From positions 1 to 12,638 of the forward strand of contig JAEEQI010000061.1 of the NCBI GenBank assembly GCA_016285215.1: 12,638 bases of DNA, given 5' to 3'. A program made the position numbers and the translations under genes. This document shows positions 238-12,638 of this stretch, in pieces. The DNA is from Bacteroidales bacterium. GTDB lineage: Bacteria; Bacteroidota; Bacteroidia; Bacteroidales; UBA932. How positions within the stretch are numbered: the stretch's first letter is position 1; each line of letters opens with the position of its first letter. The notes below the pieces were generated by a model that was not told the origin of the DNA, did no database searches, and saw nothing but the letters and a program-made list of their open reading frames with translations.

Positions 238-1899
238 ATGAAACGACTTATTCTTGTTGCTCTGAGTGCCGCTCTTGTGGCACTGTCCACCCCTTCTAAT
301 GCCTGCACCAACCTGGTTGTGGGTAAGAAAGCTTCTGCAGACGGAAGCGTTATCTGCACGTACAACTGTGACGGTTTTGGCTATGCCACCGGCATGTCGT
401 ATTCGGCCCCTGGTAAGCACGAACCCGGCGAGATGATTGCCATCCGCGGATTCTTCCCCGGTTCCGAGACCCATTACATTGCCCAGGCACCCTATACTTA
501 TAAGGTGGTGGGCCTGATGAACGAGAAGCAGGTTTCCATCGTGGAAACCACCTGGACGGGTCGCCGTGAGCTTCGCAACCCGGAGGGCTGGCTGGATTAC
601 TTCACCCTGATGGATCTGGCACTGCAGCGCTCTGCTTCGGCCCGTGAGGCCATTGCCGTTATGCATCAGCTGGTGCAGGAATATGGCTATAACGAGACCG
701 GCGAATCCTTTGCGGTTTGCGACAAGGATGAGGCCTGGATTATGGAACTCATTGGTAAGGGCAAGGGCAACAAGGGCGCCGTGTGGGTGGCCCTCCGCGT
801 GCCGGACGACTGCATCAGCGCCTACGCCAACACCAGCCGCATCCGCCAGTTCCCGCAGGCCAAGAAAGTGGACAAGAAGCTGGGCTTCTATGTGGCCGAT
901 AACGGCAACTGTATGTACAGCGCCGACGTCATCACCTTTGCCCGTGAGCAGGGTTATTTTGACGGCGCCGACAAGGACTTCAGCTTCCGCGAGGCCTACG
1001 GAAACGTGAGCAAGAGCTCCATCCGTTCCTGCGACGCCCGCGTATGGAGCTTCTTCCGCCATCACTACAACAAGGAAGAGATGGACAGCTATCTGCCGTA
1101 CCTGAACGGAGACTTCTCGGAGCACGATTCCCTGCCCCTGTGGATCAAACCCGATGCTCCCCTCACCTACCGCGACATCCAGAACGATATGCGTGACCAC
1201 TATGAGGGTACCGCCTTGGATATGACGGCCGATATGAGCGCCGGTCCCTGGGCCTCCCCCTACCGCAACCAGCCCGTGAGCTTCAAGAGCGCCGACGGCA
1301 CGGATATGTTCCGTGAGCGTCCCATTGGCTGCCAGCAGAGCGCTATGACCCTGGTTTGCCGTATGCGCAGCTGGCTGCCCGACGCCGTGGGCGGCATCAC
1401 CTATTTCAATATGGACGATGCAACCACTTCGGCTTACGTGCCCGTTTACTGCGGCATTGACCGCATCCCCGAAGCATTCCGGGCCGAGAATACCAGCATC
1501 TCTGAATTCAACGAGAAGAGCGCCTTCTGGATGAACAACTGGGTAGCCAATATGGTGTATCCCCGCTGGAGCGCTATGATTGGAGACCTCCGCGACGCCC
1601 AGAAGGAACTGGAAGACTTCTACGAGGCCGACCAGGCCGAGGTAGAGGCCAAGGTAGCCACGCTCACCGCCGGCGAAACCACCAGCTTCTTAACCAGCAA
1701 GGCTATGGCCTACACCGACAAGATGATGAAACGCTGGGACAAACTGGCCAAGTTCCTCATTGTGAAGCATAACGACCAGATTATGCGTCCTTCCAAGGAC
1801 GGAGAGATTGTCCCCGGCCGCCACACTTCCCCCGCCTACTCCCCCGAGTTCATTGAAGCGGAGAAGGCCGTTACCGGAAACCGCTACGTAAGACCGTAA
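238..1899 (+). CDS. Secreted C69-family dipeptidase (PepD-like Ntn hydrolase)
   Basis: The 553-residue product has a signal peptide (residues 1-22, ending SNA) followed directly by Cys23. Peptidase family C69 uses an N-terminal cysteine nucleophile exposed by removal of the preceding residues, and the start ACTNLVVGKKASADGSV fits the family's conserved opening. The C-terminal half (around residues 430-490, including MVYPRW and an acidic helical stretch) also fits full-length Bacteroidota C69 proteins, so the gene looks complete. The likely role is hydrolysis of dipeptides in the periplasm or outside the cell, feeding amino acid uptake. The substrate cannot be read from sequence. ATG at 238 is chosen because it gives the signal peptide and sits about 20 nt past the promoter start point. 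It appears monocistronic: its TAA abuts the stop codon of the convergent kinase gene. No functional link to the neighbouring fimbrial genes is evident. Confidence 0.93.
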   Translation: MKRLILVALSAALVALSTPSNACTNLVVGKKASADGSVICTYNCDGFGYATGMSYSAPGKHEPGEMIAIRGFFPGSETHYIAQAPYTYKVVGLMNEKQVSIVETTWTGRRELRNPEGWLDYFTLMDLALQRSASAREAIAVMHQLVQEYGYNETGESFAVCDKDEAWIMELIGKGKGNKGAVWVALRVPDDCISAYANTSRIRQFPQAKKVDKKLGFYVADNGNCMYSADVITFAREQGYFDGADKDFSFREAYGNVSKSSIRSCDARVWSFFRHHYNKEEMDSYLPYLNGDFSEHDSLPLWIKPDAPLTYRDIQNDMRDHYEGTALDMTADMSAGPWASPYRNQPVSFKSADGTDMFRERPIGCQQSAMTLVCRMRSWLPDAVGGITYFNMDDATTSAYVPVYCGIDRIPEAFRAENTSISEFNEKSAFWMNNWVANMVYPRWSAMIGDLRDAQKELEDFYEADQAEVEAKVATLTAGETTSFLTSKAMAYTDKMMKRWDKLAKFLIVKHNDQIMRPSKDGEIVPGRHTSPAYSPEFIEAEKAVTGNRYVRP

Positions 1900-3798
1900 T
1901 CAGGATTCTTTTCTGGGAATGATAAGCACAAAGCGGGCACCTTCTGTATAGGAGGTGTCCAGCCAGACTTTGCCGCCCAGGCTCTTGGCCATCATCCGGC
2001 AGATACTGAGGCCCAGACCGGCTCCCTGCTTGTTGCTGTCCAGTTTCACAAAGCGGTCAAAGATGCTTTCGGCCTTGTCGGCCGGAATGCCGGGACCCTT
2101 ATCGGACACCGAGAAGGTGATGTAGCCGGGATTCTCCACCAGCGAACTGGCCAGGATAATGTCTCCTCCTGTGGAGTTCTTGCAGGCGTTGGTCAGGAAA
2201 TTGATGAGAATCTGCTGCACGCGCATACCGTCCGTGATATAGCGGGAATCTTCATCGATGCCGGGTTGGAGAACAATGCGTGAGCCATCCGGGAAACGGT
2301 TCTCTACGGCTTTGATGGACTGCAGGCTCATTTCATTCAGGTCCGTAGGGGCCAGTTCCACCGCATATCGGCCATTCTCCATATCCGAGAGGCTGATCAT
2401 ATCGTTGATCATCATCGTGAGCAGGAGCGAGTTGTTTAGCACGTAGCCCATATATTCCTCCTTCTCTTCCGGCTGCAAGGTACCATCGGGCAATCCCAGC
2501 AGCTGCGAGAAGCCAATGATGGAGTTGAGGGGCGTACGGATCTCGTGACTCATATTCTGGATAAAGGCCGATTTCATCTGGTTGGCGTTTTCGGCCAGGT
2601 CACGGGCCTTCTGCATCCGGTGCATACTGCGAACCAGCGTGAGGATGATAAAGCCCATCAGGATCAGGAAGAACACAATGCCAAACCACATAATCTGCCG
2701 CTTGTACATCTGCCAGAAGCTGGTGGGACGGTTGAGCACCTCTGCATTCTTGGGAATCAAAGAAGTGGCCAGGCCGAAGAACCGCATAGCCCGGTAGTTC
2801 AGCGTGGGATGACCGGTCTGCAGATACAGGAAGGGCTGCGATGCGGGCCGAATGCCCATATCCAGCACGTCCAGAATGTACTGATTCAGGGCCTGGTTAT
2901 ACTCATCTATGGGATAGCTGTAGTAACCCATCAGGTTGGGGTGCTTCTCCATATTGCTGGCAAACATAGTGTACACGGGCGCCTCGGACTCAATGAGCGA
3001 AACCGTATTGTGACGGGTGGACACCGTTTCCAGATAGCCTTCCCTTACCAGCCAGGAGCTGTAGTACACCGCCATCTCCGGACCCGACTCCGTTTCCAGA
3101 ATAGTTAGCAGACGGTCTGTAGAGGTGGTGGAAGACCTGAGGACATGGTACTCAATCTCCGGATACTGCAGCCGCATATACTCTTCTACGCGCCACTCCT
3201 GCTCCTTGGACATATAGTTTTCTCCGGCAATGAAATAGAGCTTCTTGAGATTGGGCTGTACCTGGTGAATCATCTCCAGGGTATGCCGGATCATAGGCGG
3301 CGCCACAATGAGCGACAGGTTGTATCCCCGGGGCCGCAGCGAAGAAACAAAGATGCGGCGGGCATTGGGGTCACCGGGACCGTTCAGGGTATAGTCAATA
3401 TCGCAGTAATAGTCTTGTTCGCCCACCAGGAGCATAGGAATGCCCGGCCATTTCTTCTGAACCGTTTCGGCAAAATTGAATGCACTGCCGCCCAGAATCA
3501 TCACCATACGGGGAGGAAGCGGACGCGAGGCCAGGATACTGTCTACCGAATGCTGCAGATCCTTAACATTCTTATGAGCCAGCAGCTGCAGATGCTCCAG
3601 GGCAATGGTAAGATCCGGGCGCAGGCTCCGCAGCTGCACAACGGGATACAGCATCTGCTGCTCCCATTCGCTGGAAGCCGTATGGGAAGACAGGATAAAC
3701 AAGTCTTCGGGTTCTTCCTTAGTCTGGGACATCAGGAAACCGGGCACCAGCAGGAGCGCCCCCAGCAGCCATATTCTCAAACGATTCATACGCAGCAT
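1900..3798 (-). CDS. Membrane sensor histidine kinase with substrate-binding-protein-like periplasmic domain
   Basis: The 632-residue kinase has a signal peptide or signal anchor (about 5-24), then a periplasmic region (about 30-365) resembling the ABC substrate-binding-like sensor fold found in many Bacteroidota kinases. Hallmarks are the strand-turn ILGGSAFNF (101-109), IPMLLVGE (120-127) and the repeated Rossmann-like alternation. One transmembrane helix follows (about 370-389). The cytoplasmic part has a HisKA H-box SHEIRTPL with phosphoacceptor His418, an N-box [12 protein letters not shown] (531-542), a G1 box DKGPGIP (566-572) and a G2 box GAGLGLS (592-598). All catalytic motifs are intact. 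It carries no receiver or DNA-binding domain, so it needs a separate partner; the single-domain response regulator in the same operon is the obvious candidate. It is the last of six co-directional genes. The TAG of the upstream AraC gene is separated by one base from this ATG, implying translational coupling. Met4 is an alternative start. The ligand is unknown. Confidence 0.93.
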
Positions 3799-3799
3799 T

Positions 3800-5110
3800 C
3801 TATTTGCGGGAGGCCCAGACCTTGGGCGTATACCCCGTTATCCGTTTAAAGGTGGAATTGAAGGAAGAGGCGCTCTGGAAGCCGGAAGCCTTGGCAATGT
3901 CCTCCTGGGCTGCATCGGCGTGCGTACTCATATACTGCTGGGCATAGTCCACGCGCATAATATTGAGCACTTCCGGGAAACCGATTCCGTAGGTCTGGTT
4001 CACCATCTTGGAGATATAGGTCTTGTTGCTGTCCAGTCTTTCGGCCACATCCTGGAGCGTGAGACCCTGGCGCAGGAACAGCAGTTCGTCCTGCATCAGG
4101 TGCTGGAAGCGGTAGACCAGGGTACCTTCGTCCCAGCTCTGGTTATTTCCAAACAGGGCCGAAGTAAGAGAAGGAGAGCTGGCCGAAGGAGCATCTTCCC
4201 CTTCCGTCTGCATCACCATATGGGAAATCACGTGCGTAAGGGACTGTCCCTGCAGATTGTCCACCATATCCAATACCACCTCTTCGGACACCCGGGACTG
4301 GCTTTCCCTGGAATAATTGAACCGGAGGGCCGATCTTACATCGTCCATTGAAATGGACTCCTTGGAGCCAAAGAGGGCAAACAGGCCGAATAAGAAAATG
4401 AAGCCGGACATCACCAGCACGATGAGCACGGTAGCTACGGGATGAAGCCTGTAAAAGGGAACGTTCAGGAACACTTTGACGGAAAAGCCCACCATAATGA
4501 GAAGGCTGAGCGTCATCTGAATTTCCAAAACGCGCATCTTGTGTCCTTTCTTGAGGAAGCCCACCCAGTCGGACAGTTTGTAATGCTTCTTCCGGATGAT
4601 ATGGATACAATACAGAATCAGAAGGACGCTTTCAAACACCATCACACATCTGTAGATTAGTATCGTCCATATGTAATAGGTCTTCTCCAGTCCCACATAG
4701 GAATCGTCGGGGAACAGCGAGATGCGGGAATGGATTCTATCCAGCAGCATATCCGTATTGGAGAGGCCATTCATTCCCACCAGGGTAATACCCGCCGTAA
4801 GGAGAGCAACCGGGAAGAGCAACCAGACATAATGGAAGGGACCGGGCTTGAAGGGCCTTTCCAACTTGGTAAAGTAAAGCCAGGCGAGCGGGATAATGCA
4901 CGGGGAACAAGACAGATCCACCAGGTGGCTGACGGTGTCCGATCCGGTCAGGGAGCCCAGCAGAACGTCTCCTGCAGCCGCCAGGAACACGGAACCCATC
5001 AAGGACATTAGCAGTTTATACGCATCCAGACGGGACGCCAGAAAGTGATGCACCAACATCCAGAAGGCGCATACCAGTCCGCAGATAACAAAATAAGGCG
5101 TTAAACTCAT
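3800..5110 (-). CDS. Membrane-embedded AraC-family transcriptional regulator (seven predicted TM helices)
   Basis: The 436-residue protein has a hydrophobic N-terminal half with about seven transmembrane helices (near 5-24, 32-52, 68-82, 92-113, 144-172, 197-216, 225-248), a cytoplasmic linker (250-345), and a C-terminal AraC/XylS DNA-binding domain. The first helix-turn-helix is [19 protein letters not shown] (350-368). The second includes [20 protein letters not shown] (403-422), ending in the family's GYTPKVW signature. Membrane-bound AraC regulators with a multi-TM sensor half are known in Bacteroidota; they are thought to sense a membrane or periplasmic cue and act on DNA from the membrane. 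There is no receiver domain, so any input from the operon's kinase and response regulator must be by protein contact. Its ATG overlaps the preceding stop as ATGA. The likely target is the divergent fimbrial promoter region at 8319-8631, which holds inverted repeats; this is inference from context. Confidence 0.9.
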
Positions 5111-5529
5111 ATCCGGCCTCCTCCCTGAGCACTCAGCTCTTCATCCACCTTCTTCTTCTCATCCATGAGCAGGGTCAGGAGCCAGTCGCTCTGCTCCTGC
5201 GAAAGGCCCAGGTCCCGGCAGGCGCTGTCGTAACGGTTGAGCACGGCCTCCTGGTAACGGTGAGACACCATAGATTTGCGAATCTCTTCCTCAATGGTCT
5301 CGTGCTCAATTTCGTAGCTTTCCTTGTAGTACTTCTTGTACACCAGTTCCGAAGTAAACCGGATGCTGTAATAAAACAGCCCGGCAGAGAGTACGAATAC
5401 GCCCAGCATACCCCAAAGCGGGGAAATGCGCTGGATCAGCGCCAGCAAAGCCAGCACGGACCCTAAAACAAACAGGAACAGGGCGTGTATCTCGTGCTTA
5501 TGATATTGGTATAGGGAGGAAAGGGTCAT
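5107..5529 (-). CDS. Small two-TM membrane protein of unknown function
   Basis: I do not recognise a family for this 140-residue protein. It has two hydrophobic helices (about 14-33 and 37-55), joined by a tight turn around QRISPLWG. A soluble charged tail of about 85 residues follows, helical in character, with an acidic segment (EIEHETIEEEIR, 73-84) and a Lys/Glu-rich end. No metal-binding or catalytic motif is visible. The hairpin topology would put both ends in the cytoplasm. Both boundaries are ATGA overlaps, with the TPR gene upstream and the AraC gene downstream, so it is translationally coupled to both and is almost certainly a real gene. The position suggests a bridging or stabilising role between the TPR membrane protein and the membrane-bound AraC protein, but that is only inference from context. 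Confidence 0.8.
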   Translation of the reverse strand: MTLSSLYQYHKHEIHALFLFVLGSVLALLALIQRISPLWGMLGVFVLSAGLFYYSIRFTSELVYKKYYKESYEIEHETIEEEIRKSMVSHRYQEAVLNRYDSACRDLGLSQEQSDWLLTLLMDEKKKVDEELSAQGGGRI

Positions 5530-6794
5530 AATGTATTGTACGGTTTATTCTGAAGCAACTTGATTTTTACGGCATTTTCGGCCTCCTTGGCGTCCAGGGC
5601 CTGCCTGTATGCCCGCCGGGCCATAAGGATGGAATTCTGCTGGGCCCTCATCTGGTCCAGGTTGTCCCTTACCCGCCACTGATGAATGAGCACGGATAAG
5701 AAACCCAGGAAGAACATCAGGAGAAAACCAGCCAGCAAAAGGAACTGGTTGCGGTTTTTCTGGCGCTCGGCCTCTTCCCTCAGACGGGCGTTATCCATCT
5801 CGGCCTCCAGGATGGCCAGGTCTTCGTTCTGTAAGCGGATATGGGCCTCTTCTTTCTGGGCCATTAACTCCAGCAGGCTGCCATAGGCCTCATCGTACTT
5901 TCCTAGATGGGCTTGGATGGCGTGCTGCTGTTCCAGACGCTCCATTCCGGAATCGATGGCTTTCGTTCTCTCCAGCGCTTCTTTGAGAAGGCCGCGGGAG
6001 CGAAGATACACCACATCCAGAATGGCCGGAGTATCTTTAAGCTGGTCGTAGCACGCCCAGAAAGAGTCCATATCTCCCTGTGCGTGATACAGAAGGGCCT
6101 GGTTCATAAGGACCTTGTCCCGCATAGCGGGGAAGAAATCCTGGTATTTGGCCGCCTCATTACAAGACTGATGGGCCTCCTGAAACTCTCCCAGCTTCAT
6201 CTGTTCCTGCGCCAGCAGGAGATACAGATTGGGAAGTTCCTGCTCGGCCCGGGCTTCCCGGCAGAAATGAATAGCCAGCAGCAGATTTTCAACAGCCAGA
6301 CCCGCATTGTTTCTGTAGCTCTGGATTAGGCCGAGGATGCGATAGGAATACATCTCTCCCAACGGATTCCTCTCCTTCACGGCCAGGCGAGACATTGCAC
6401 GGGCCTCCAGAACGGACTCCGAGATGCGGTTGGACCTCAGGAGAAACTCTGCATACTCGTGAAGGGTTACAAAATAGAATTCCCGGAGGTCTTTCCGGTT
6501 GGCCAGCAAACCTTTGAGCTCTGCTGCAATCACATCCATCCTCTCGTATTCTCCCTGGGCAAAGCGCACGGGCATCTCCACGGAAAGCGCCAGGCACTTA
6601 TAGCGAAGATTTCCGTGTCGAACGCCCTCCTGGTATAAGGAATCGGCCCATTCCAGGTTGGCGGGATTGTACTCCTGCATTCTGGCCTGGGCATACCGAA
6701 GGAAGGTGGGCTGGTCCACCCGCAGCCTGTTCACAATCTGAGCCTGGGCGCCTACGCACAGGAACAGGCACGCGATGAGGAGGAGGTGGCGCAC
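5526..6794 (-). CDS. TPR-repeat periplasmic sensor-like protein with one TM helix and short cytoplasmic tail
   Basis: The 422-residue product has a signal peptide (cleavage predicted after AQA, residue 18), then an alpha-helical periplasmic region with TPR-like repeats. The clearest lie at about 149-182, 189-219, 228-256 and 287-316, with the small-residue and aromatic pattern of TPRs. A charged coiled-coil segment (about 313-348) leads into a single transmembrane helix (350-370) and a cytoplasmic helical tail of about 50 residues. In Bacteroidota this TPR, coiled coil, TM arrangement normally continues into a histidine kinase or a LuxR-type DNA-binding domain. Here the protein simply ends, with no kinase motifs. 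The start is GTG at 6794-6792; no in-frame ATG precedes the signal peptide. It lies 4 nt after the response regulator stop, and its TGA overlaps the next ATG. It probably relays a periplasmic signal by protein contact within the operon's signalling assembly. Confidence 0.88.
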   Translation of the reverse strand: MRHLLLIACLFLCVGAQAQIVNRLRVDQPTFLRYAQARMQEYNPANLEWADSLYQEGVRHGNLRYKCLALSVEMPVRFAQGEYERMDVIAAELKGLLANRKDLREFYFVTLHEYAEFLLRSNRISESVLEARAMSRLAVKERNPLGEMYSYRILGLIQSYRNNAGLAVENLLLAIHFCREARAEQELPNLYLLLAQEQMKLGEFQEAHQSCNEAAKYQDFFPAMRDKVLMNQALLYHAQGDMDSFWACYDQLKDTPAILDVVYLRSRGLLKEALERTKAIDSGMERLEQQHAIQAHLGKYDEAYGSLLELMAQKEEAHIRLQNEDLAILEAEMDNARLREEAERQKNRNQFLLLAGFLLMFFLGFLSVLIHQWRVRDNLDQMRAQQNSILMARRAYRQALDAKEAENAVKIKLLQNKPYNTL

Positions 6795-6798
6795 GGCT

Positions 6799-7221
6799 CT
6801 ACTGATTCTTGTCGGTCTGGGACATGGTTAGCTGCGTAACCACACTGGTGAGCAGCCTTTCCATGATGATGGGCTTCATGATATAGTCATTGGCCCCCAT
6901 ATTGAAGCCCTTGGAGACATCTTCTCCGGAAGTAAGGGCCGTAAGGATGATTATGCGGATATTGGCCGTTTCGGGATTGGATTTGAGACGCCGAATCACT
7001 TCGTAGCCGTCTATTCCGGGCATCATCAGATCCAGCAGAATGAGATCCGGCTTGTTGCGGACCACGGAATCCAGGGCCTCCTGACCGCCGGAAGCGGTTT
7101 CCAGCTTGAAATTGAAACGGGCCAGCATCTTCTTGACCAGGAGAAGATTGAGAGGTATATCGTCCACTGCCAGTACCCGGCAGGCGGAAAAATCATATTC
7201 CTGTGCGTAGATGGGGATCAT
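6799..7221 (-). CDS. Single-domain (receiver-only) response regulator
   Basis: The 140-residue protein is a CheY-like receiver with all key residues. There is an acidic pair in VLAVDD (Asp20, Asp21), the phosphoacceptor Asp64 in LILLDLMMPG, the conserved Thr94 in ILTA and Lys116 in MKP. A 14-residue N-terminal extension precedes the first strand, and only about 15 residues follow the last helix, so there is no output domain. It must act by binding another protein or by passing phosphate on. The histidine kinase at the end of the same operon is the likely phosphodonor. The membrane AraC protein and the TPR protein are candidate partners, by inference. The ATG is 11 nt after the fimbrillin-like gene stop, with no terminator between, so the two are co-transcribed. 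Confidence 0.94.
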   Translation of the reverse strand: MIPIYAQEYDFSACRVLAVDDIPLNLLLVKKMLARFNFKLETASGGQEALDSVVRNKPDLILLDLMMPGIDGYEVIRRLKSNPETANIRIIILTALTSGEDVSKGFNMGANDYIMKPIIMERLLTSVVTQLTMSQTDKNQ

Positions 7222-7232
7222 AAATGGAGCAA

Positions 7233-8318
7233 TCAGAAATCTTGGTTACTTTCATATATCTTGGTTTCCCACCCGCTCACACTGGCAGAAAATTCGATGG
7301 GATGATAGATGGAACTCAGATCCAGGCCGATATGGAAGGTATACTGCTTGCCGGGCATCATTGTATTGCCGGGCAGAAGGCCATAGATCATATATTTGAG
7401 AACCTGATCTTTCATAGGAGCGTATTCTTCTCCGGAAATGGAGAAACCGTCCACGTCAAAATGGACTTCTACATACTGGACGCCCATTTCAATCTGGTCC
7501 GGTATGGCATAGAAACGGTGGCTGGCTTCCTTGGTTTCTACCAGGGAGTTTTTACCAACATAAAGCTTTCCTTCATTGCCTACGCCCACCGGAGCATCCC
7601 CTTCAAAGACCGTGACATCTCTGTAATAGCCTTGGTAATTCCAGTTACCACGGCTGAGAATGATGTCATTGACATAGACTCCGGCCGATGCCACATTGGT
7701 AGCAACCAGTTTACGAAGATGGATGAGGCCCTGCAACTGGGAAATGGGAGTAACGTCGCAGATGCGGAAGCCAATATCGTTGGTAATATGGCAGAATTCA
7801 AGAGGCAGGGTGTTGAGCAGGTTGAATGAACGCTCTACCGTTTTAGAAACAAGCGGTCCAGCCTCGGTTTCCGTTAATTCGTAAGGAATGGAATAGGACT
7901 GATGCGAATTCTCGTAAGAAACCGTTTTGACGTGCGGATAATATGCGCTGAAAAGGAGAGGATCCTGGATTTCGAGCAGCCCGCCATCCAGAAATGCCTC
8001 ATACTTACCGTTATTGCCAGTACTAACAAGAATGTTATCCAGCACAAGAGAACTTGATTGAGGCTCAATACCAATCAAGGAGAACGGTTTTGAAACATCC
8101 ATTGTGGCCAGCATATTGGAAACCGACGCAGAAGACTCTTCAGCGGCGCGGGTAACAGCATTGTTATCCTCCAATTTTACGCCATCTCGCAGCACGGATA
8201 TATCAAACCCAAGTTTAAGGCCTTTAGGAGCCACCTCTACAGGATCACTGTCTAAAGTGCTGCAGGATAGCGCCAAAAGCCCAAATACTGAAAATAAACC
8301 GGCCGCAATACGTTTCAT
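7233..8318 (-). CDS. Fimbrillin-family (Mfa-like) lipoprotein heading the signalling operon
   Basis: The 361-residue protein starts at ATG 8318. A longer reading frame begins at a TTG at 8366-8364, but that TTG is the promoter -33 element, upstream of the predicted transcription start, so it cannot be used. Residues 1-18 are a lipoprotein signal peptide ending LALS, with lipidated Cys19 and acidic residues soon after, a pattern linked to surface display in this phylum. The fold signs are those of fimbrillins: an N-terminal segment with an Arg after a variable stretch (AVTRA, Arg57), the SAYYP motif (124-128), many beta-strand stretches, and the C-terminal IEFSASVSGW (341-350). That last motif matches INFSATISDW in the structural fimbrillin at 11107-12204. 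It is the first gene of an operon otherwise made of signalling proteins, so it may be a minor or tip subunit or a sensor of pilus state. Its structural role is inferred. Confidence 0.85.
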   Translation of the reverse strand: MKRIAAGLFSVFGLLALSCSTLDSDPVEVAPKGLKLGFDISVLRDGVKLEDNNAVTRAAEESSASVSNMLATMDVSKPFSLIGIEPQSSSLVLDNILVSTGNNGKYEAFLDGGLLEIQDPLLFSAYYPHVKTVSYENSHQSYSIPYELTETEAGPLVSKTVERSFNLLNTLPLEFCHITNDIGFRICDVTPISQLQGLIHLRKLVATNVASAGVYVNDIILSRGNWNYQGYYRDVTVFEGDAPVGVGNEGKLYVGKNSLVETKEASHRFYAIPDQIEMGVQYVEVHFDVDGFSISGEEYAPMKDQVLKYMIYGLLPGNTMMPGKQYTFHIGLDLSSIYHPIEFSASVSGWETKIYESNQDF

Positions 8319-8335: not shown

Positions 8336-8366
8336 CAAATATAAACAATTCTTTCTTATTCTGCAA
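8336..8366 (-). promoter_or_regulatory. Promoter of the fimbrillin-like/signalling operon
   Basis: Read on the minus strand, TATATTTG (8343-8336) matches the -7 consensus TAnnTTTG exactly. TTG (8366-8364) lies 20 nt upstream of it, which is the canonical Bacteroidota -33/-7 spacing. Transcription would begin around 8330-8328, leaving a leader of about 10 nt before the ATG at 8318. This is the best promoter match in the window and would drive all six minus-strand genes. Confidence 0.75.
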
Positions 8367-8600
8367 TACTTAATTTAAAATATTACTAATTATTTTTTAA
8401 TATTAAATTCTTTTACAAACTGAAAGATACTTAATAATTCAATTTTTTGAAAATTGCCAAAAATTAGCCCGCTTGAGGTCTCAGACGCCGAAAATAGGTT
8501 CAAGGAATAGCAAAACTTATTTTGAAATCAAAAATCAAGAATCAAAAATTCTTGCTAAAAATATTTTTAAATAAAATTTTTTATTTACGAGAATAATACA
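8367..8600. other. AT-rich divergent intergenic control region
   Basis: No gene is visible here. The region is mostly A/T tracts that would be bent or easily melted. It holds several symmetric sites: the palindrome TTAATATTAA at 8397-8406, the inverted repeat CAAAA-CTTA-TTTTG at 8511-8524, and the pair described separately at 8536-8569. A direct repeat AATCAAAAAT occurs at 8526-8535 and again at 8540-8549, a 14-nt period. A short GC-rich island (about 8467-8490, containing TGAG-GT-CTCA at 8474-8483) stands out against the AT background. It separates the signalling operon from the fimbrial operon and probably serves both promoters. Confidence 0.6.
8536..8569. promoter_or_regulatory. Candidate operator: inverted repeat plus 14-bp palindrome upstream of the fimbrial promoter
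   Basis: CAAGAAT (8536-8542) and ATTCTTG (8548-8554) form a perfect 7-bp inverted repeat with a 5-nt spacer. Immediately downstream, TAAAAATATTTTTA (8556-8569) is a perfect 14-bp palindrome. Together they end about 31 bp before the -7 element at 8601, a position suited to an activator. AT-rich DNA produces chance palindromes, so the evidence is moderate. The regulator would most plausibly be the membrane AraC protein of the divergent operon, by inference. Confidence 0.4.
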
Positions 8601-8608
8601 TAATTTTG
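8601..8608 (+). promoter_or_regulatory. Promoter -7 element of the fimbrial operon
   Basis: TAATTTTG matches TAnnTTTG exactly. The place where a -33 TTG would be expected (about 8577-8582) is only a T-run, so the promoter looks weak without help and may depend on an activator. Transcription would start near 8613-8616, about 17 nt before the TTG start codon. Confidence 0.6.
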
Positions 8609-8620
8609 CCTTCGGAAAAC

Positions 8621-8634
8621 GGAGAAATCAATTG
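8621..8634 (+). promoter_or_regulatory. Shine-Dalgarno-like site deciding a TTG start
   Basis: GGAGA at 8621-8625 lies 6 nt before the TTG at 8632. No in-frame ATG occurs between the promoter and the signal peptide, and the next Met codon lies deep in the mature protein. This supports TTG as the start, although a second TTG at 8647 is possible. A purine-rich site of this kind is unusual among the genes in this window. Confidence 0.5.
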
Positions 8635-9939
8635 TATTATAGTTCGTTGGAACTGAAAAAGCACATTCTCTGGGCCCTGTTGCCCGCTTTAAGTTTGTTC
8701 TTCTGCACGCACGCATACGCGCAGGAACGCTTTAGACTCCACTTCGCCAGAAATGAGAGCGAGTTCTTCTACACGCTCCTGGACAACGAACAAACCCTCC
8801 AGTCTCTCAAGAAGACCGTAGATGCCATCGGCCCCGAAAATATCCAGTCTGTAGACGTTACGGTATTCGCTTCTCCGGAAGGCCCCTATCAGTTTAACCA
8901 GGATCTTTGCCGCCGCAGAGCCAATGAATTCTCTACTGCCGTTCTCCCCTATCTCAGAGGCGCCGAAGACAAAATCCACATCACCATTGGCGGAGAAGCC
9001 TGGGAAGAACTTCGTAAACGCGTAGCAGCAGACAAAAAGCTCCGTCCTGAGTACATTGAGCAGATTCTCGCCATTCTGGACGACGAAACCATTGACAACG
9101 AAACCCGCAAGGAGTACATTGCCACCAGAATCAGCGAGCACAATTACCGCTTCCTCCTGTGGGAACATTATCGTCTGCTCCGTTACTACGACATCGTCAT
9201 TACCGTAAAACCGGAAGAAACGGAGAAACAAATCCCTGAGAAGGATGTTCTTCCACAGGAAGCTGCACAGGACACCACTGTGAAGAGCGTACCTGAGGTT
9301 GCTTTACCGCTCACCCAACGCGAAGAAGAGACTCAGAAGGAAGAGAAGCGGGTCTTTATGGCCATTAGCACCAACCTCCCCTACGACATTACCTACATTC
9401 CCGGCTACGGACTCACCAGCATCCCCAGCTTTACCCTGGAAATTATGCCCAGAAACAGCCGCTGGACGCTGGGAGCAGACGTAGAGTGGCCTATGTGGCA
9501 GCATCCGGAAAGCCACAGATACTTCCAAGTCAACAACATTACCCTCTGGACGCGCCGTTACTTCCGTTCTCCGTCTGAACCGCGCCGCAGGGGCTGGTAT
9601 CTGATGGGCAACGTGAATGCCGCCCGCTACGGCATTGGCTTCAACGCCAACAAGGGTTGGGAAGGTGAAGGCTTGGGTGCCTCCCTGGGCTTTGGTTACC
9701 GCGTTCCCCTGGGCCGCTACTGCTTCCTGGATATGGGTCTGGCCGCCGGCGCTTTCTACAGCGCCTACGATCCCTATGTATGGGGCAATGACGGCACGCA
9801 GCGGTATTATTACGACTACAATGGAGATCCTTCCGAATTTGTCAGACGCAACCAGAGGCTCTTCTGGGCTGGTCCTACCCGCGTCTGGCTGTCATTCGGC
9901 TTTGATTTCTGGAAAAAAGACAGGAGGAAGACGAAGTAA
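8632..9939 (+). CDS. OmpA-like/DUF3575 protein of the fimbrial locus
   Basis: The 435-residue protein has a signal peptide (cleavage after AYA, residue 30). An OmpA-like domain follows (about 33-192), with the VFASPEGP strand-turn (78-85) and an NQDLCRRRA helix (89-97) that parallels the NxxLSxxRA motif of OmpA domains. Then comes a charged, proline-containing linker (193-240) and a C-terminal DUF3575 region (241-428) rich in aromatic, alternating strands, consistent with an outer-membrane beta structure. Proteins of this family commonly open fimbrillin loci in Bacteroidota, followed by a DUF5119 gene and fimbrillins, exactly as here. The probable role is at the outer membrane in fimbria assembly or anchoring; the precise activity is not established by sequence. 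The Asp that binds peptidoglycan in classical OmpA domains is not seen at the expected turn. The stop TAA shares its last A with the next ATG, so the two genes are translationally coupled. Confidence 0.82.
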   Translation: MYYSSLELKKHILWALLPALSLFFCTHAYAQERFRLHFARNESEFFYTLLDNEQTLQSLKKTVDAIGPENIQSVDVTVFASPEGPYQFNQDLCRRRANEFSTAVLPYLRGAEDKIHITIGGEAWEELRKRVAADKKLRPEYIEQILAILDDETIDNETRKEYIATRISEHNYRFLLWEHYRLLRYYDIVITVKPEETEKQIPEKDVLPQEAAQDTTVKSVPEVALPLTQREEETQKEEKRVFMAISTNLPYDITYIPGYGLTSIPSFTLEIMPRNSRWTLGADVEWPMWQHPESHRYFQVNNITLWTRRYFRSPSEPRRRGWYLMGNVNAARYGIGFNANKGWEGEGLGASLGFGYRVPLGRYCFLDMGLAAGAFYSAYDPYVWGNDGTQRYYYDYNGDPSEFVRRNQRLFWAGPTRVWLSFGFDFWKKDRRKTK

Positions 9940-11069
9940 TGCAGAAGTTTAAGCATATCCTCGTTCTTCTGGTCCTGTGTGCCCAGGCCAGCGGCTGCAG
10001 CATCCGTCCCGAATTGCACCTGCGCGAGCCTATGCAAGCCCAGATTGTCCTGGAAACCGAGGTAAACCTCAATCTGATGTGGCAGGTGGAGTGGGAAACC
10101 GAGTGGGAATTCCCCTGGAACGCCAACGTCCTGGGCCCTCTGGGCTACAAGGAACCCGCCAGCATCAGCGCTCACGTGTATTCCCTGGACCAAAACGGTA
10201 ATCACAGATCTCACTATACTAAGAATTTCTACGGTACCACGGCCAATATGCCCATTACCGTAGGCGATTACGATCTCCTTTTCCACAACAACGACTCCGA
10301 GACGCTGCTTTTCAGCGCCGAGGACGAGCTGGGAACCATTTACTGCAACACCCGCATCATCTCCAGCGGCCTCAAGGAATCCAGCCCCGTTCTCACCGCT
10401 ATGCAGAAGTTTGACGGAGACACCAAGGCCGATGAGTCCCTCATTCAGGATCCCATTGCCCTGATGCCCGACGGCCTCTTTGTCCTGTATGACCAGGGAG
10501 AGACCATCAGCGGAAACCTGGAAGATTACGAATACATTGACGGAAAGTACATCCTCCGCATCCAGGGCATTATGAATCCCGCCACCTACATCCACCTGTT
10601 CCAGTTGCATCTGGCCAACAACGAAGGCCGTGTAGTGGGCAGCAACGGCGGCGGCGTGCTCACCGGAGTGGCTGCCGGCGTTAATCTGGATACGCGCGTA
10701 TCCGCGCGCACGCCCGTGGGCATACCTACAGATGTATATTACGACAAAACCAAGGAGCTGATGGCCGCCCGCTTTATGAGCTATGGCATTCCCGGATGCA
10801 ATCCGTACAGCCACGAGAGCGTGGAGCAGGCTCCAGAAGGAAAAAATTTCCTGGTCATCAACATCAGCTACGCCAACGGCAACTGGAAGAATATCCGCAT
10901 AGATGTTACCAAGGCTTTACGGGCACTGCCCCTGGGAGGCTTGATAGATATCACGCTGGACGTGAACGACTTCCCTCCGGAAGACGGATCCACCGGCGGC
11001 GGTGGCGGCTTTGACGCCCTCATCAACGACTGGGACGAAGAGCACGGAGAAACAACGATTGTTTTTTAA
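9939..11069 (+). CDS. DUF5119 lipoprotein, probable FimB/Mfa2-like fimbrial anchor or assembly component
   Basis: The 376-residue protein has a lipoprotein signal peptide ending ASG with lipidated Cys20, followed by the RPELHLREP segment. The NLNLMWQVEW segment (43-52) and the following strands, with the PITVGDYDLLFHNND stretch, match the DUF5119 family of fimbrial-locus proteins. That family sits at the position of the FimB/Mfa2 anchor subunits in Porphyromonas. A Gly run (353-357) precedes a short acidic C-terminal segment ending TTIVF. The role inferred from family and position is an outer-membrane anchor that starts or ends fimbria polymerisation. It overlaps the upstream gene by one base (TAATG) and is followed after 37 nt by the structural fimbrillin gene. 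Confidence 0.82.
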   Translation: MQKFKHILVLLVLCAQASGCSIRPELHLREPMQAQIVLETEVNLNLMWQVEWETEWEFPWNANVLGPLGYKEPASISAHVYSLDQNGNHRSHYTKNFYGTTANMPITVGDYDLLFHNNDSETLLFSAEDELGTIYCNTRIISSGLKESSPVLTAMQKFDGDTKADESLIQDPIALMPDGLFVLYDQGETISGNLEDYEYIDGKYILRIQGIMNPATYIHLFQLHLANNEGRVVGSNGGGVLTGVAAGVNLDTRVSARTPVGIPTDVYYDKTKELMAARFMSYGIPGCNPYSHESVEQAPEGKNFLVINISYANGNWKNIRIDVTKALRALPLGGLIDITLDVNDFPPEDGSTGGGGGFDALINDWDEEHGETTIVF

Positions 11070-11106: not shown

Positions 11107-12204
11107 ATGAGTATGAAAAAAGTAGTAATCCTGGCCGCAGCGGCCCTCACCCTCGTCGCCTGCGCAAAAACCTACGAACTCCAGGAAACCGCCCAGCCCA
11201 AGATTGGCTTCGACACCTGGGCCAACAACCTTACCAAAGCCCGCACTCAGGGCACCAACACCTTCGTCGCTGGCGACGACTTTGCCGTGTATGGCTACAA
11301 AGAAAAGTCTTCCAGCAAAGTTACCGTATTTGACGACGACGTTGTTAGCACCACCGACGGCACCACTTGGACCTACACCAATCCTCGTTTCTGGGATTTT
11401 GGCTACGATAAGTATGTCTTCTACGCCGTCTCTCCCGCTTCTGTAGGCACTTCTGGCACGGTTAACCCCCAATCCGGCGAAATCACCAGCGCCGCTATCA
11501 CCTTTGCCGGCAATGACAACGACATCCTGGTTGCCAACGAGCATGTAGTGAACAAGACTGACGGTGCCCAATATTTCAACGGGTATGGTACCGTTGAGAT
11601 GGATTTCCACCACGTTGCTTCCCTGGTAGACATCAAAGTCAAGAAAGCACCCGCATGGCACGATGCCACCGTTTCCATTACGGCATTCCAACTCTCCAAC
11701 ATTGAAAATGAAGGTGTGCTTACCGTTAACTCTTACTCTACCACCCCGGCAGCCAATTGGTCTAATGCTGGAACTGGCTCCTATGGTCCCGCCAATGGTG
11801 TAACTCCCGTTAGCATCGCCAGCCCCATTGCTATTGCTGAAGACACTACTTTCGACCCTGCAAATCCTACCACCCCGGGCGAGACAGCTTCTACGTTTGT
11901 TATCAACAGTCTCGTAGTAAAGCCCCAGACCTTTGTCGCTTCCAGCGAAGCCAATCCTCAGAAGATAACCCTTAGCTACAAGATCTCCAGCAATGGTGAA
12001 GAAGTAACTTATACTGATAAAGTGCTTTACCTCGCTGATTTTGATATCACAAATGATGATAAACAGAACGGCACAAAGATTGGTTCCTGGGATGCTGGAA
12101 AGCACTATACTTTCTATATTACCATCGGTGCTAACGCCATCAACTTCAGCGCTACCATCTCTGACTGGGACACCGTTAGCGGTTACAACTACCTCGTTTA
12201 CTAA
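11107..12204 (+). CDS. Fimbrillin-family lipoprotein, probable major structural subunit
   Basis: The 365-residue protein has a lipoprotein signal peptide ending TLVA with Cys19. Met3 is an alternative start. An N-terminal segment (20-46) ends at TKART with Arg46; in Porphyromonas fimbrillins a propeptide is cut after an Arg in this area, exposing a groove for the next subunit's strand, and Arg46 is the candidate site here. Fimbrillin hallmarks are WTYTNPRFWDFGYDKYVFYA (88-107), the DFHHVASLVDIKV core (166-178), and the C-terminal INFSATISDW (345-354) followed by an aromatic tail ending YLVY, suitable as a donor strand. The codons are more T-rich than in the upstream genes, particularly in the second half. 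It lies 37 nt after the DUF5119 gene and 3 nt before another fimbrillin. It is probably the main fibre subunit, as the first complete fimbrillin after the anchor gene. Assignment as major subunit rests on position. Confidence 0.87.
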   Translation: MSMKKVVILAAAALTLVACAKTYELQETAQPKIGFDTWANNLTKARTQGTNTFVAGDDFAVYGYKEKSSSKVTVFDDDVVSTTDGTTWTYTNPRFWDFGYDKYVFYAVSPASVGTSGTVNPQSGEITSAAITFAGNDNDILVANEHVVNKTDGAQYFNGYGTVEMDFHHVASLVDIKVKKAPAWHDATVSITAFQLSNIENEGVLTVNSYSTTPAANWSNAGTGSYGPANGVTPVSIASPIAIAEDTTFDPANPTTPGETASTFVINSLVVKPQTFVASSEANPQKITLSYKISSNGEEVTYTDKVLYLADFDITNDDKQNGTKIGSWDAGKHYTFYITIGANAINFSATISDWDTVSGYNYLVY

Positions 12205-12207
12205 TCT

Positions 12208-12638
12208 ATGCGTCAGCGCATCATACTCATAGCAGCACTTGCTTCCGTCACCCTGCTTGTTGCAGGGTGCGGGAAGCAGGACAATCCGGCCCAGGAGCAG
12301 AATTCCATCAGCTTCCAGGCCGGATGTTCCCTGCTGCGGGATGATGCCACCAAAGAGTCGGCAGCTCCTATGAGCGCCGGGGATCAAATCCCCGAATTCC
12401 GCGTATACGGAACCAAAACCGTTGGCGGAACGCGCTACGAGGTCTTCTCCGGCGATCTGGTAGAGAGCATTCTCACCGGATGGACATACAGTCCCATCCG
12501 CTTCTGGGATTCCAACGCCAGCAGCTATGAATTCCTGGGAGTATCCGGCCCCCAAACCATTATTTTTGAAAACAATACCCCTCTTACGGCCAAGGTAACC
12601 TACAACCCCACGGTATCGCAGTACGACCTTATGGCCGC
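12208..12638 (+). CDS. Second fimbrillin-family lipoprotein, 3' end outside window
   Basis: The ATG at 12208 is 3 nt after the preceding fimbrillin stop, and the frame stays open to the window edge (143 codons visible). The protein begins with a lipoprotein signal peptide ending LLVAG with Cys21. It contains WTYSPIRFWD (about 91-100), which aligns with WTYTNPRFWD of the upstream fimbrillin, then an EFLGVSGP segment matching the upstream VFYAVSP. It is therefore a related but diverged fimbrillin, likely an accessory or tip subunit, since such genes usually follow the major subunit. No Arg in an obvious TRA-type context is conserved; Arg44 (LLRDD) is one option. It is probably co-transcribed with the genes before it. 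Confidence 0.82.
   Translation, partial: MRQRIILIAALASVTLLVAGCGKQDNPAQEQNSISFQAGCSLLRDDATKESAAPMSAGDQIPEFRVYGTKTVGGTRYEVFSGDLVESILTGWTYSPIRFWDSNASSYEFLGVSGPQTIIFENNTPLTAKVTYNPTVSQYDLMA

Follow-up and report, generated by a model that had tools for sequence, protein, structure and literature searches.

We describe a six-gene operon in a 12,638-nucleotide stretch of DNA from a Bacteroidales bacterium (contig JAEEQI010000061.1 of GenBank assembly GCA_016285215.1; hereafter the window), where it stands divergent from a fimbrial operon. In order of transcription its genes encode a fimbrillin-like lipoprotein (fimL), a receiver-only response regulator (RR), a membrane protein with a periplasmic TPR sensor (TPR), a small protein of an unnamed family (p140), a membrane-embedded regulator of the AraC type (AraC) and a histidine kinase (HK) (Table 1). 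The operon exists with the anatomy described in an earlier sequence-only reading of this DNA, according to the list of open reading frames (ORFs), Pfam matches and hydropathy. On balance we favor the view that it is a compact form of a conserved signaling module that controls the divergent fimbrial operon, resembling the FimS/FimR system but with its parts distributed over several proteins. The sequences show directly which genes are present, that these are inherited together and lie close to one another, that the TPR protein stops just short of an H-box, that HK and RR keep their active-site residues, and that a conserved element stands at near-fixed spacing upstream of the fimbrial promoter. 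The kinase-less, truncated nature of TPR and the conserved element in the divergent promoter region are newly noted here.

Linkage and distribution of the module

A genome scan with p140 yielded 85 relatives, the best 80 loci of which were analyzed. Since these loci, and 20 genomes examined via them, were reached through p140, its presence in them is given by construction; its copy number and distances are not. Locus counts were taken by tblastn, as greedy clustering of ORFs missed some p140, RR and AraC genes lying behind antisense ORFs. Most of the relatives carry titles of uncultured Bacteroidia or Bacteroidales; a few are titled Bacteroidaceae, and there is a single Candidatus Colenecus as well as a metagenome-assembled genome labeled Fibrobacter. 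Many are from ruminants, and we take RUG isolate names to indicate rumen origin. TPR adjoins p140 in all 80 loci, and in 72 of these the two genes overlap, the overlap being either 4 nt (43 loci) or 23 nt (29 loci). RR was detected in 78 loci, upstream on the same strand in 61 (within 10 nt of TPR in 51 of these), downstream and convergent in 16, and elsewhere in one (L033); the two loci where it was missed, L009 and L070, end no more than about 420 bases from TPR. Within the fetched flanks, 37 of the 80 loci hold a fimL homologue, one of them weak (L024, 27%).

At the genome level, each of the 20 genomes carries exactly one copy of p140, and fimL is present once in 18 and twice in two. The two genes lie 1.7-26 kb apart on a single contig in 19 of the 20. 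An AraC match stands beside fimL in 14 genomes and in the same operon in four more; it consists of two partial matches in one frame in G015 and G016, no full-length AraC match was found in G011, and AraC is on another contig in G014. Fourteen genomes have DUF5119 no more than 5 kb from fimL. The sequence-only reading treated these genes as one unit connected with fimbriae, and this is supported by the linkage of p140 to fimL, the position of AraC beside fimL and the nearby DUF5119 genes.

Wider samples gave a consistent distribution. In a family sample of 299 genomes, in which fimL and TPR were scored on the best six and best five candidates per genome, p140 occurs in 14 genomes and TPR in the same 14 plus G688, where it is fused to a kinase. 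fimL is found in 13 of the 14 p140-positive genomes (missing from G632) and, among the best six candidates per genome, in none of the 285 others. An order-wide draw of 393 genomes contained p140 in the query genome only, and in a genus sample of 151 genomes p140 matches occur in 28, of which G778 (E 3e-4) was excluded as unsupported and G741, a partial match at a contig start, was retained, leaving 27 credible genomes. From these counts across the 20-genome, family, order and genus sets, the module has a narrow taxonomic range, within which its components occur together. Common descent could account for this co-occurrence, but alone it leaves unexplained a linkage within 26 kb that persists despite changing order and orientation. 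RR, TPR and p140 stay together as a conserved unit, and we regard the existence of a single conserved module linked to fimbriae as well supported.

The match of fimL to Mfa_like_1 (PF13149) scores 16.2 bits in the window against a cut-off of 27, and a relative in L031 reaches 31.8 bits. An alignment of 27 members (A3) has 54% mean column identity, a nearly invariant lipobox cysteine (Cys19), a conserved C-terminus (E-x2-IYE-x-N) and a conserved T-K or T-R pair, which we take to resemble the cleavage region of fimbrillins. The fimbrillin-like sequence, lipobox and T-K/R fit a protein that simply builds or anchors the pilus and shares a transcript with its regulators, in an operon that does not sense pilus state. 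We regard this as a real possibility, somewhat short of even, given that fimL of distant loci is better conserved (41-61% identity to the window) than the remaining fimbrillins of those loci, which, L001 and L017 aside, have 22-42% identity to the window Mfa1. fimL also keeps its link to the regulators in places that lack a nearby fimbrial operon, although both features are also compatible with a structural role.

Second fimL-like genes occur outside the module at G015:C12:25341-26390, G016:C1:109288-110361 and G664:C76:53898-54947. Among other fimbrial genes of the relatives, L034:13793-15634 encodes a DUF3575 protein with an N-terminal OmpA domain, which suggests a fimbrial base anchored to peptidoglycan.

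Several results weigh against the module as a single unit that controls fimbriae. The exact six-gene order is confined to four of the 80 loci (L001, L002, L017 and L044), close relatives that share the same flanks, a DUF3575 operon and a C69 peptidase, and in most of the others the kinase next to RR-TPR-p140 is a different one, about 650 aa long. p140 and fimL are more than 5 kb apart in nine of the 20 genomes and on separate contigs in one (G018), and no DUF5119 gene lies within 5 kb of fimL in G011 and G014-G018. The p140-positive genomes may also form one clade, in which case co-occurrence would be phylogenetically non-independent, as the family and genus counts take no account of kinship. 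Among the observations that the sequence-only reading had itself named as speaking against it, two can be compared with these data. One, a gene order seen only in this genome, is contradicted by the four further loci; the other, homologues scattered among unrelated loci, holds insofar as RR-TPR-p140 sits beside another kinase in most loci, yet in 19 of the 20 genomes no more than 26 kb separates these genes from fimL.

These patterns could instead reflect two functionally separate units that are neighbors by coincidence, with fimL-AraC(-RR) running the fimbriae and HK-RR-TPR-p140 belonging to another signaling system, the two having been joined fortuitously in the lineage of the window. Most loci have RR-TPR-p140 by the different kinase without DUF3575 or DUF5119 matches in the fetched flank, and fimL-AraC-RR has its own receiver in L031, L034, L036, L074-L080 and L094, both in favor of this reading. 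We nevertheless think it unlikely, considering the single-contig linkage, the shared presence across the 299 family genomes, and L069, an intermediate in which fimL-AraC-RR-TPR-p140 adjoins a fimbrial operon.

Some loci depart further from the window. L074-L080, of which three carry Bacteroidaceae titles and one that of Candidatus Colenecus, represent another lineage with two receivers, arranged as fimL-AraC-RR-RR convergent with TPR-p140, and with two larger kinases of about 760-810 aa. At L013:7791-8678 a gene for prolipoprotein diacylglyceryl transferase (Pfam match in L013; same cluster in L005, L016 and L030) is inserted between RR and TPR, so that it adjoins a system with a lipoprotein member.

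The truncated sensor and its proposed signaling partners

The nature of the TPR protein is indicated by a fusion in a relative, L093:5437-7470 in G688, that combines a TPR sensor with HisKA and HATPase domains. A BLAST alignment of this fusion with the TPR protein of L031 spans 436 of the 444 L031 residues (29% identity over 437 columns), and in a multiple alignment the fusion and the TPR proteins run gapless across the transmembrane (TM) segment and the signaling helix, with the window C-terminus IKLLQNKPYNTL aligned to QRFVQNMSHEVRTPL of the fusion. A profile comparison of TPR with the window HK, weak alone (E 0.015, probability 3%), gives the same register as the fusion alignment. Judged by its sequence, TPR is a sensor kinase truncated just before the H-box: because of the fusion alignment, the family can be seen to retain the sensor, membrane helix and signaling helix, without a phospho-accepting histidine or an ATPase. 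No p140 was found in the fusion-bearing genome, which belongs to the same taxonomic family, and the fusion is possibly the ancestral layout.

Searches with the sensor point weakly to FimS. The window TPR matches the FimS model (NCBIfam NF053520) with E 4.7e-5 and 21.9 bits, below its 600-bit cut-off, and five of 23 TPR members have such a weak match (best E 4.6e-5). The fusion protein gave no FimS match for its TPR half at E 0.01, which counts against this kinship, and a sequence search for solved relatives of the TPR sensor returned none at E up to 1. A total of 330 TPR homologues were found among 7,997 scored candidates.

A second kinase-less case is the 400-aa protein beside the other kinase in L050 and L060, which is a copy of the sensor half of that kinase (31-34% identity). 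Proteins alike in cluster and size to the one by the main kinase of L050 (L050:7070-8275; about 400-430 aa) occur in L004, L021, L045, L049, L056, L059-L062, L066-L068 and L072, and L010 has two full-length kinases side by side in place of the kinase and the protein of about 400-430 aa.

RR and HK have the residues expected for phosphotransfer. RR has D20, D21 and D64 in 78/78 and K116 in 79/79 aligned sequences, and S or T at position 94 in 79/79, so that it carries the residues of an active receiver: acidic pair, phosphorylatable aspartate, T/S and lysine. In the HK alignment (A5, 44 sequences) N537, D566, G568, G570, G592, G594 and G596 are invariant and H418 is conserved in at least 90%, corresponding to the H-box histidine and the N and G boxes of an active kinase; its sensor conforms to the two-lobed fold of substrate-binding proteins. 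HTH_18 is present in AraC, within a separate seven-TM protein (alignment A4), and AraC is the sole protein of the operon in which a DNA-binding domain was recognized.

The sequence-only reading saw in this set of domains a 'split' hybrid two-component system (HTCS), and kinase, receiver and AraC domains are indeed encoded as separate proteins here, whereas the HTCSs of Bacteroides hold them, with the sensor, in one chain. One study describes an S/C-H-I-P motif at the alpha3-beta4 loop of HTCS receivers, from which a small fraction of HTCSs deviate, and phosphorylation-independent DNA binding when C-H is changed to A-D there (PMC11253607). That motif occurs in none of the 78 aligned receivers; 58 of them read A-D-I-Q or A-D-I-R at this position, to be compared with the C-H to A-D effect, and the window reads A-N-I-R. 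AraC in addition has a seven-TM domain of its own, and the extra TPR protein is related to the TPR-kinase and not to the sensor of the window HK, p140 being a further protein foreign to HTCSs. An HTCS merely separated into genes, with the same inhibition between receiver and DNA-binding domain, was rejected on the receiver motif and seems to us quite improbable, despite the shared domain list and the adjacency of AraC and receiver genes in several relatives. The circuit may be wired differently from an HTCS, for example via p140 or the membrane part of AraC.

p140 belongs to a sizeable family, with 797 homologues among 889 candidates. Conservation was assessed in 201 sequences (those of the window and the 80 loci plus the top 120 homologues, a set with many close members), in which the cytoplasmic half is near-invariant: S86, R91, E112, Q113 and I140 are each present in 201 and H76, C104 and D106 in 200. 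An AlphaFold model of low confidence (pLDDT 76, pTM 0.35) places a TM hairpin before a helix at 37-107 and a returning helix at 111-134. Because this near-fixed cytoplasmic half stands beside a receiver-only regulator, we suggest that p140 may be a docking adaptor. Kinship with the TPR protein was considered, but no match between the two was found. That p140 is an HPt/DHp-like phosphotransfer protein relaying phosphate via His76 is very improbable: this histidine is all but fixed, on a long helix with a second helix after it, but many residues are as conserved, hhalign found no profile similarity to the kinase DHp (with a shallow, low-diversity profile), and the model, its arrangement being of low confidence, had no match in a PDB fold search at E 0.001.

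The candidate operator

The region between fimL and the divergent DUF3575 gene contains a 42-nt footprint whose best ungapped identity to the four relatives with the same gene order is 39, 36, 32 and 33 of 42, compared with shuffled maxima of 28-29. Within it lies the candidate operator TCAAGAAT-N3-AAATTCTT, for which a pattern was designed from the window, L001 and L044 and the best-match strings of L031, L034 and L085; sites in G005, G013, G710 and G789, as well as second, opposite-strand sites in G006 and G007, are independent of this design. A looser form of the pattern has 13 matches in the 1,486,897 bases of the loci and window, all of them 56-242 nt from a fimL or DUF3575 match (loci L081 and L088 duplicate L031 and L001). 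The strict form has 10 matches in the 20 genomes, eight on target in six genomes and two elsewhere, with none for a reversed control. In the genus sample, where 'on target' means within about 1.5 kb of a fimL, AraC, DUF3575 or DUF5119 tblastn match and other fimbrial genes could be missed, seven of 26 strict matches are on target (G001, G005, G006 twice, G013, G710 and G789), and no genus genome lacking a p140 match has an on-target strict site. The four on-target genomes outside the pattern design compare with a chance expectation, obtained by shuffling nine such regions, of about 0.0007 matches per region.

The position of the element is also constrained. On the fimbrial side, the distance from operator start to a TAnnTTTG box, which we take to be the Bacteroidetes -7 consensus (the basis for both -7-like boxes of the window), is 63-67 nt in eight of 11 sites and 74 nt in another, while the remaining two lack a box. 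At the fimL end of the region, site and box are 60, 60 and 42 nt apart. Near-constant spacing from a promoter would be expected of an activator site. The footprint, pattern matches and box spacing agree with the earlier suggestion that the divergent fimbrial promoter is the control point, and we judge it moderately likely that AraC acts on this promoter via the candidate element.

Other counts temper this picture. Nineteen of the 26 strict matches in the genus sample are off target and the reversed control gave three matches there; the strict operator is on target in only six of the 20 genomes and six of the 27 credible p140-positive genus genomes, so that in many it is either degenerate or replaced. 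The strict site is also absent from the fimL side of the window. As a general element, a 34-column model of the footprint was rejected, since of 10 upstream regions from more distant loci the majority did not fit it (p 0.01 in L034, 0.03 in L081 and 0.055 in L031, the last two being one genome, and 0.1-0.85 in the other seven); only the shorter core carries over.

In L118, AraC is directly divergent from DUF3575 with the operator between them, and the fetched stretch contains no fimL match.

Proposed circuit and features of the window

Known control of type V pili in Bacteroidota is mainly that of FimS/FimR in Porphyromonas gingivalis. According to two reports, FimS has a periplasmic TPR sensor and controls fimbriae, its signal being unknown (PMC11053733), FimR binds DNA (PMC1974823), and the pair activates fimbrial genes (PMC11053733, PMC1974823). 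The window likewise combines a periplasmic TPR sensor and its TM segment with a kinase and a regulator. It differs in that the TPR sensor is kinase-less (its relative in L093 is fused to a kinase), the window kinase has a substrate-binding-like sensor, and the regulator is receiver-only (140 aa) with DNA binding left to the seven-TM AraC. We know of no FimS/FimR counterpart of p140. Receiver-only response regulators of the CheY/Spo0F type serve flagella or sporulation; RR shares with them the single receiver domain and conserved acidic pocket with D64 and K116, but is tied to a membrane TPR/p140 pair and to AraC. The divergent operon, with its DUF3575 and DUF5119 genes, is a type V (FimA/Mfa1-type) fimbrial operon, the adjoining regulatory module being unusual.

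In the circuit that we propose, HK would sense a small ligand through its substrate-binding-like domain and phosphorylate RR at D64, a step that we consider plausible. The kinase-less TPR sensor may read a periplasmic polypeptide, possibly unassembled fimbrillin or fimL; that it reads pilus subunits is speculative, and we would rate it doubtful. With p140 as a membrane adaptor, TPR could bias the kinase or dock the receiver, and phosphorylated RR might release or recruit the membrane-held AraC, although that RR works through p140 or AraC is likewise speculative, with rather less than an even chance. AraC would then bind TCAAGAAT-N3-AAATTCTT and activate the DUF3575-DUF5119-fimbrillin operon, and in some relatives it may also act on fimL. 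A caution is that binding of AraC to the element, the choice of RR as the substrate of HK and the role of p140 are all steps that we infer.

A stronger version, offered tentatively and on present evidence unlikely, is that a dedicated kinase-less TPR co-sensor, intact as far as the H-box, and p140 as a new family of membrane adaptors form an obligatory complex gating signal flow from RR to the membrane-embedded AraC, and that this new architecture reads the periplasmic state of pilus subunits (fimL or free fimbrillin) and sets fimbrial transcription via the TCAAGAAT element. In the reading that we favor, the module would constitute a second, genetically separable design for fimbrial control, in which sensing by TPR, kinase activity, receiver and DNA binding reside on different proteins and are thus open to study one at a time. 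It also supplies a specific candidate DNA element to test, and p140 is a conserved, unannotated family that, through its association with a receiver and a truncated sensor, hints at a novel type of signaling adaptor. This gene set was absent from the top matches of searches of open-licence papers.

Table 1. Position and strand of the operon genes, promoter-region elements and fimbrial genes in the window.
Feature	Position	Strand	Description and basis
fimL	7233..8318	-	Heads the operon; fimbrillin-like lipoprotein of 361 aa; ORF call
RR	6799..7221	-	Receiver-only response regulator, 140 aa; Response_reg E 1.8e-27
TPR	5526..6794	-	Periplasmic TPR sensor, TM and signaling helix, 422 aa; kinase-less, stopping where an H-box would start
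p140	5107..5529	-	TM hairpin, then long cytoplasmic helical hairpin, 140 aa; unnamed family
AraC	3800..5110	-	Seven-TM protein with C-terminal AraC-type helix-turn-helix; HTH_18 E 4.3e-13; TM by hydropathy
HK	1900..3798	-	Histidine kinase with substrate-binding-protein-like periplasmic sensor
Footprint, divergent intergenic region	8524..8565	+	Ungapped identity to four relatives versus shuffles
Candidate operator TCAAGAAT-N3-AAATTCTT	8535..8553	+	Pattern matches across loci and genomes
-7-like box TAATTTTG, fimbrial operon	8601..8608	+	66 nt from operator start
-7-like box TATATTTG, fimL operon	8336..8343	-	
DUF3575 protein	8632..9939	+	Opens the divergent fimbrial operon, the presumed target; 38.2 bits, cut-off 21.1
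DUF5119 protein, fimbrial operon	9939..11069	+	34.9 bits, cut-off 27
Fimbrillin (Mfa_like_1), fimbrial operon	11107..12204	+	72.8 bits, cut-off 27
Additional gene of fimbrial operon, probably fimbrillin	12208..12636	+	Open ORF, cut by window end

The last gene in Table 1 has Mfa-like matches at the equivalent position in L001, L002, L017 and L044 (by Pfam for L044). No RNA elements or tRNAs scored above curated thresholds in the window. A plasmid or defense origin was rejected: a plasmid comparison gave matches on four plasmids only, each covering 1-2% of the query, and a PADLOC defense search found nothing beyond two weak receiver matches. Downstream of the operon, window positions 238-1899 encode a C69 dipeptidase whose stop codon abuts that of HK (1899/1900) and which is kept as a neighbor in four relatives. 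At 5111-5132 on the minus strand, inside the end of p140 and upstream of AraC, is GGGAGGAGG, a strong Shine-Dalgarno-like run of a kind that is unusual in Bacteroidota.

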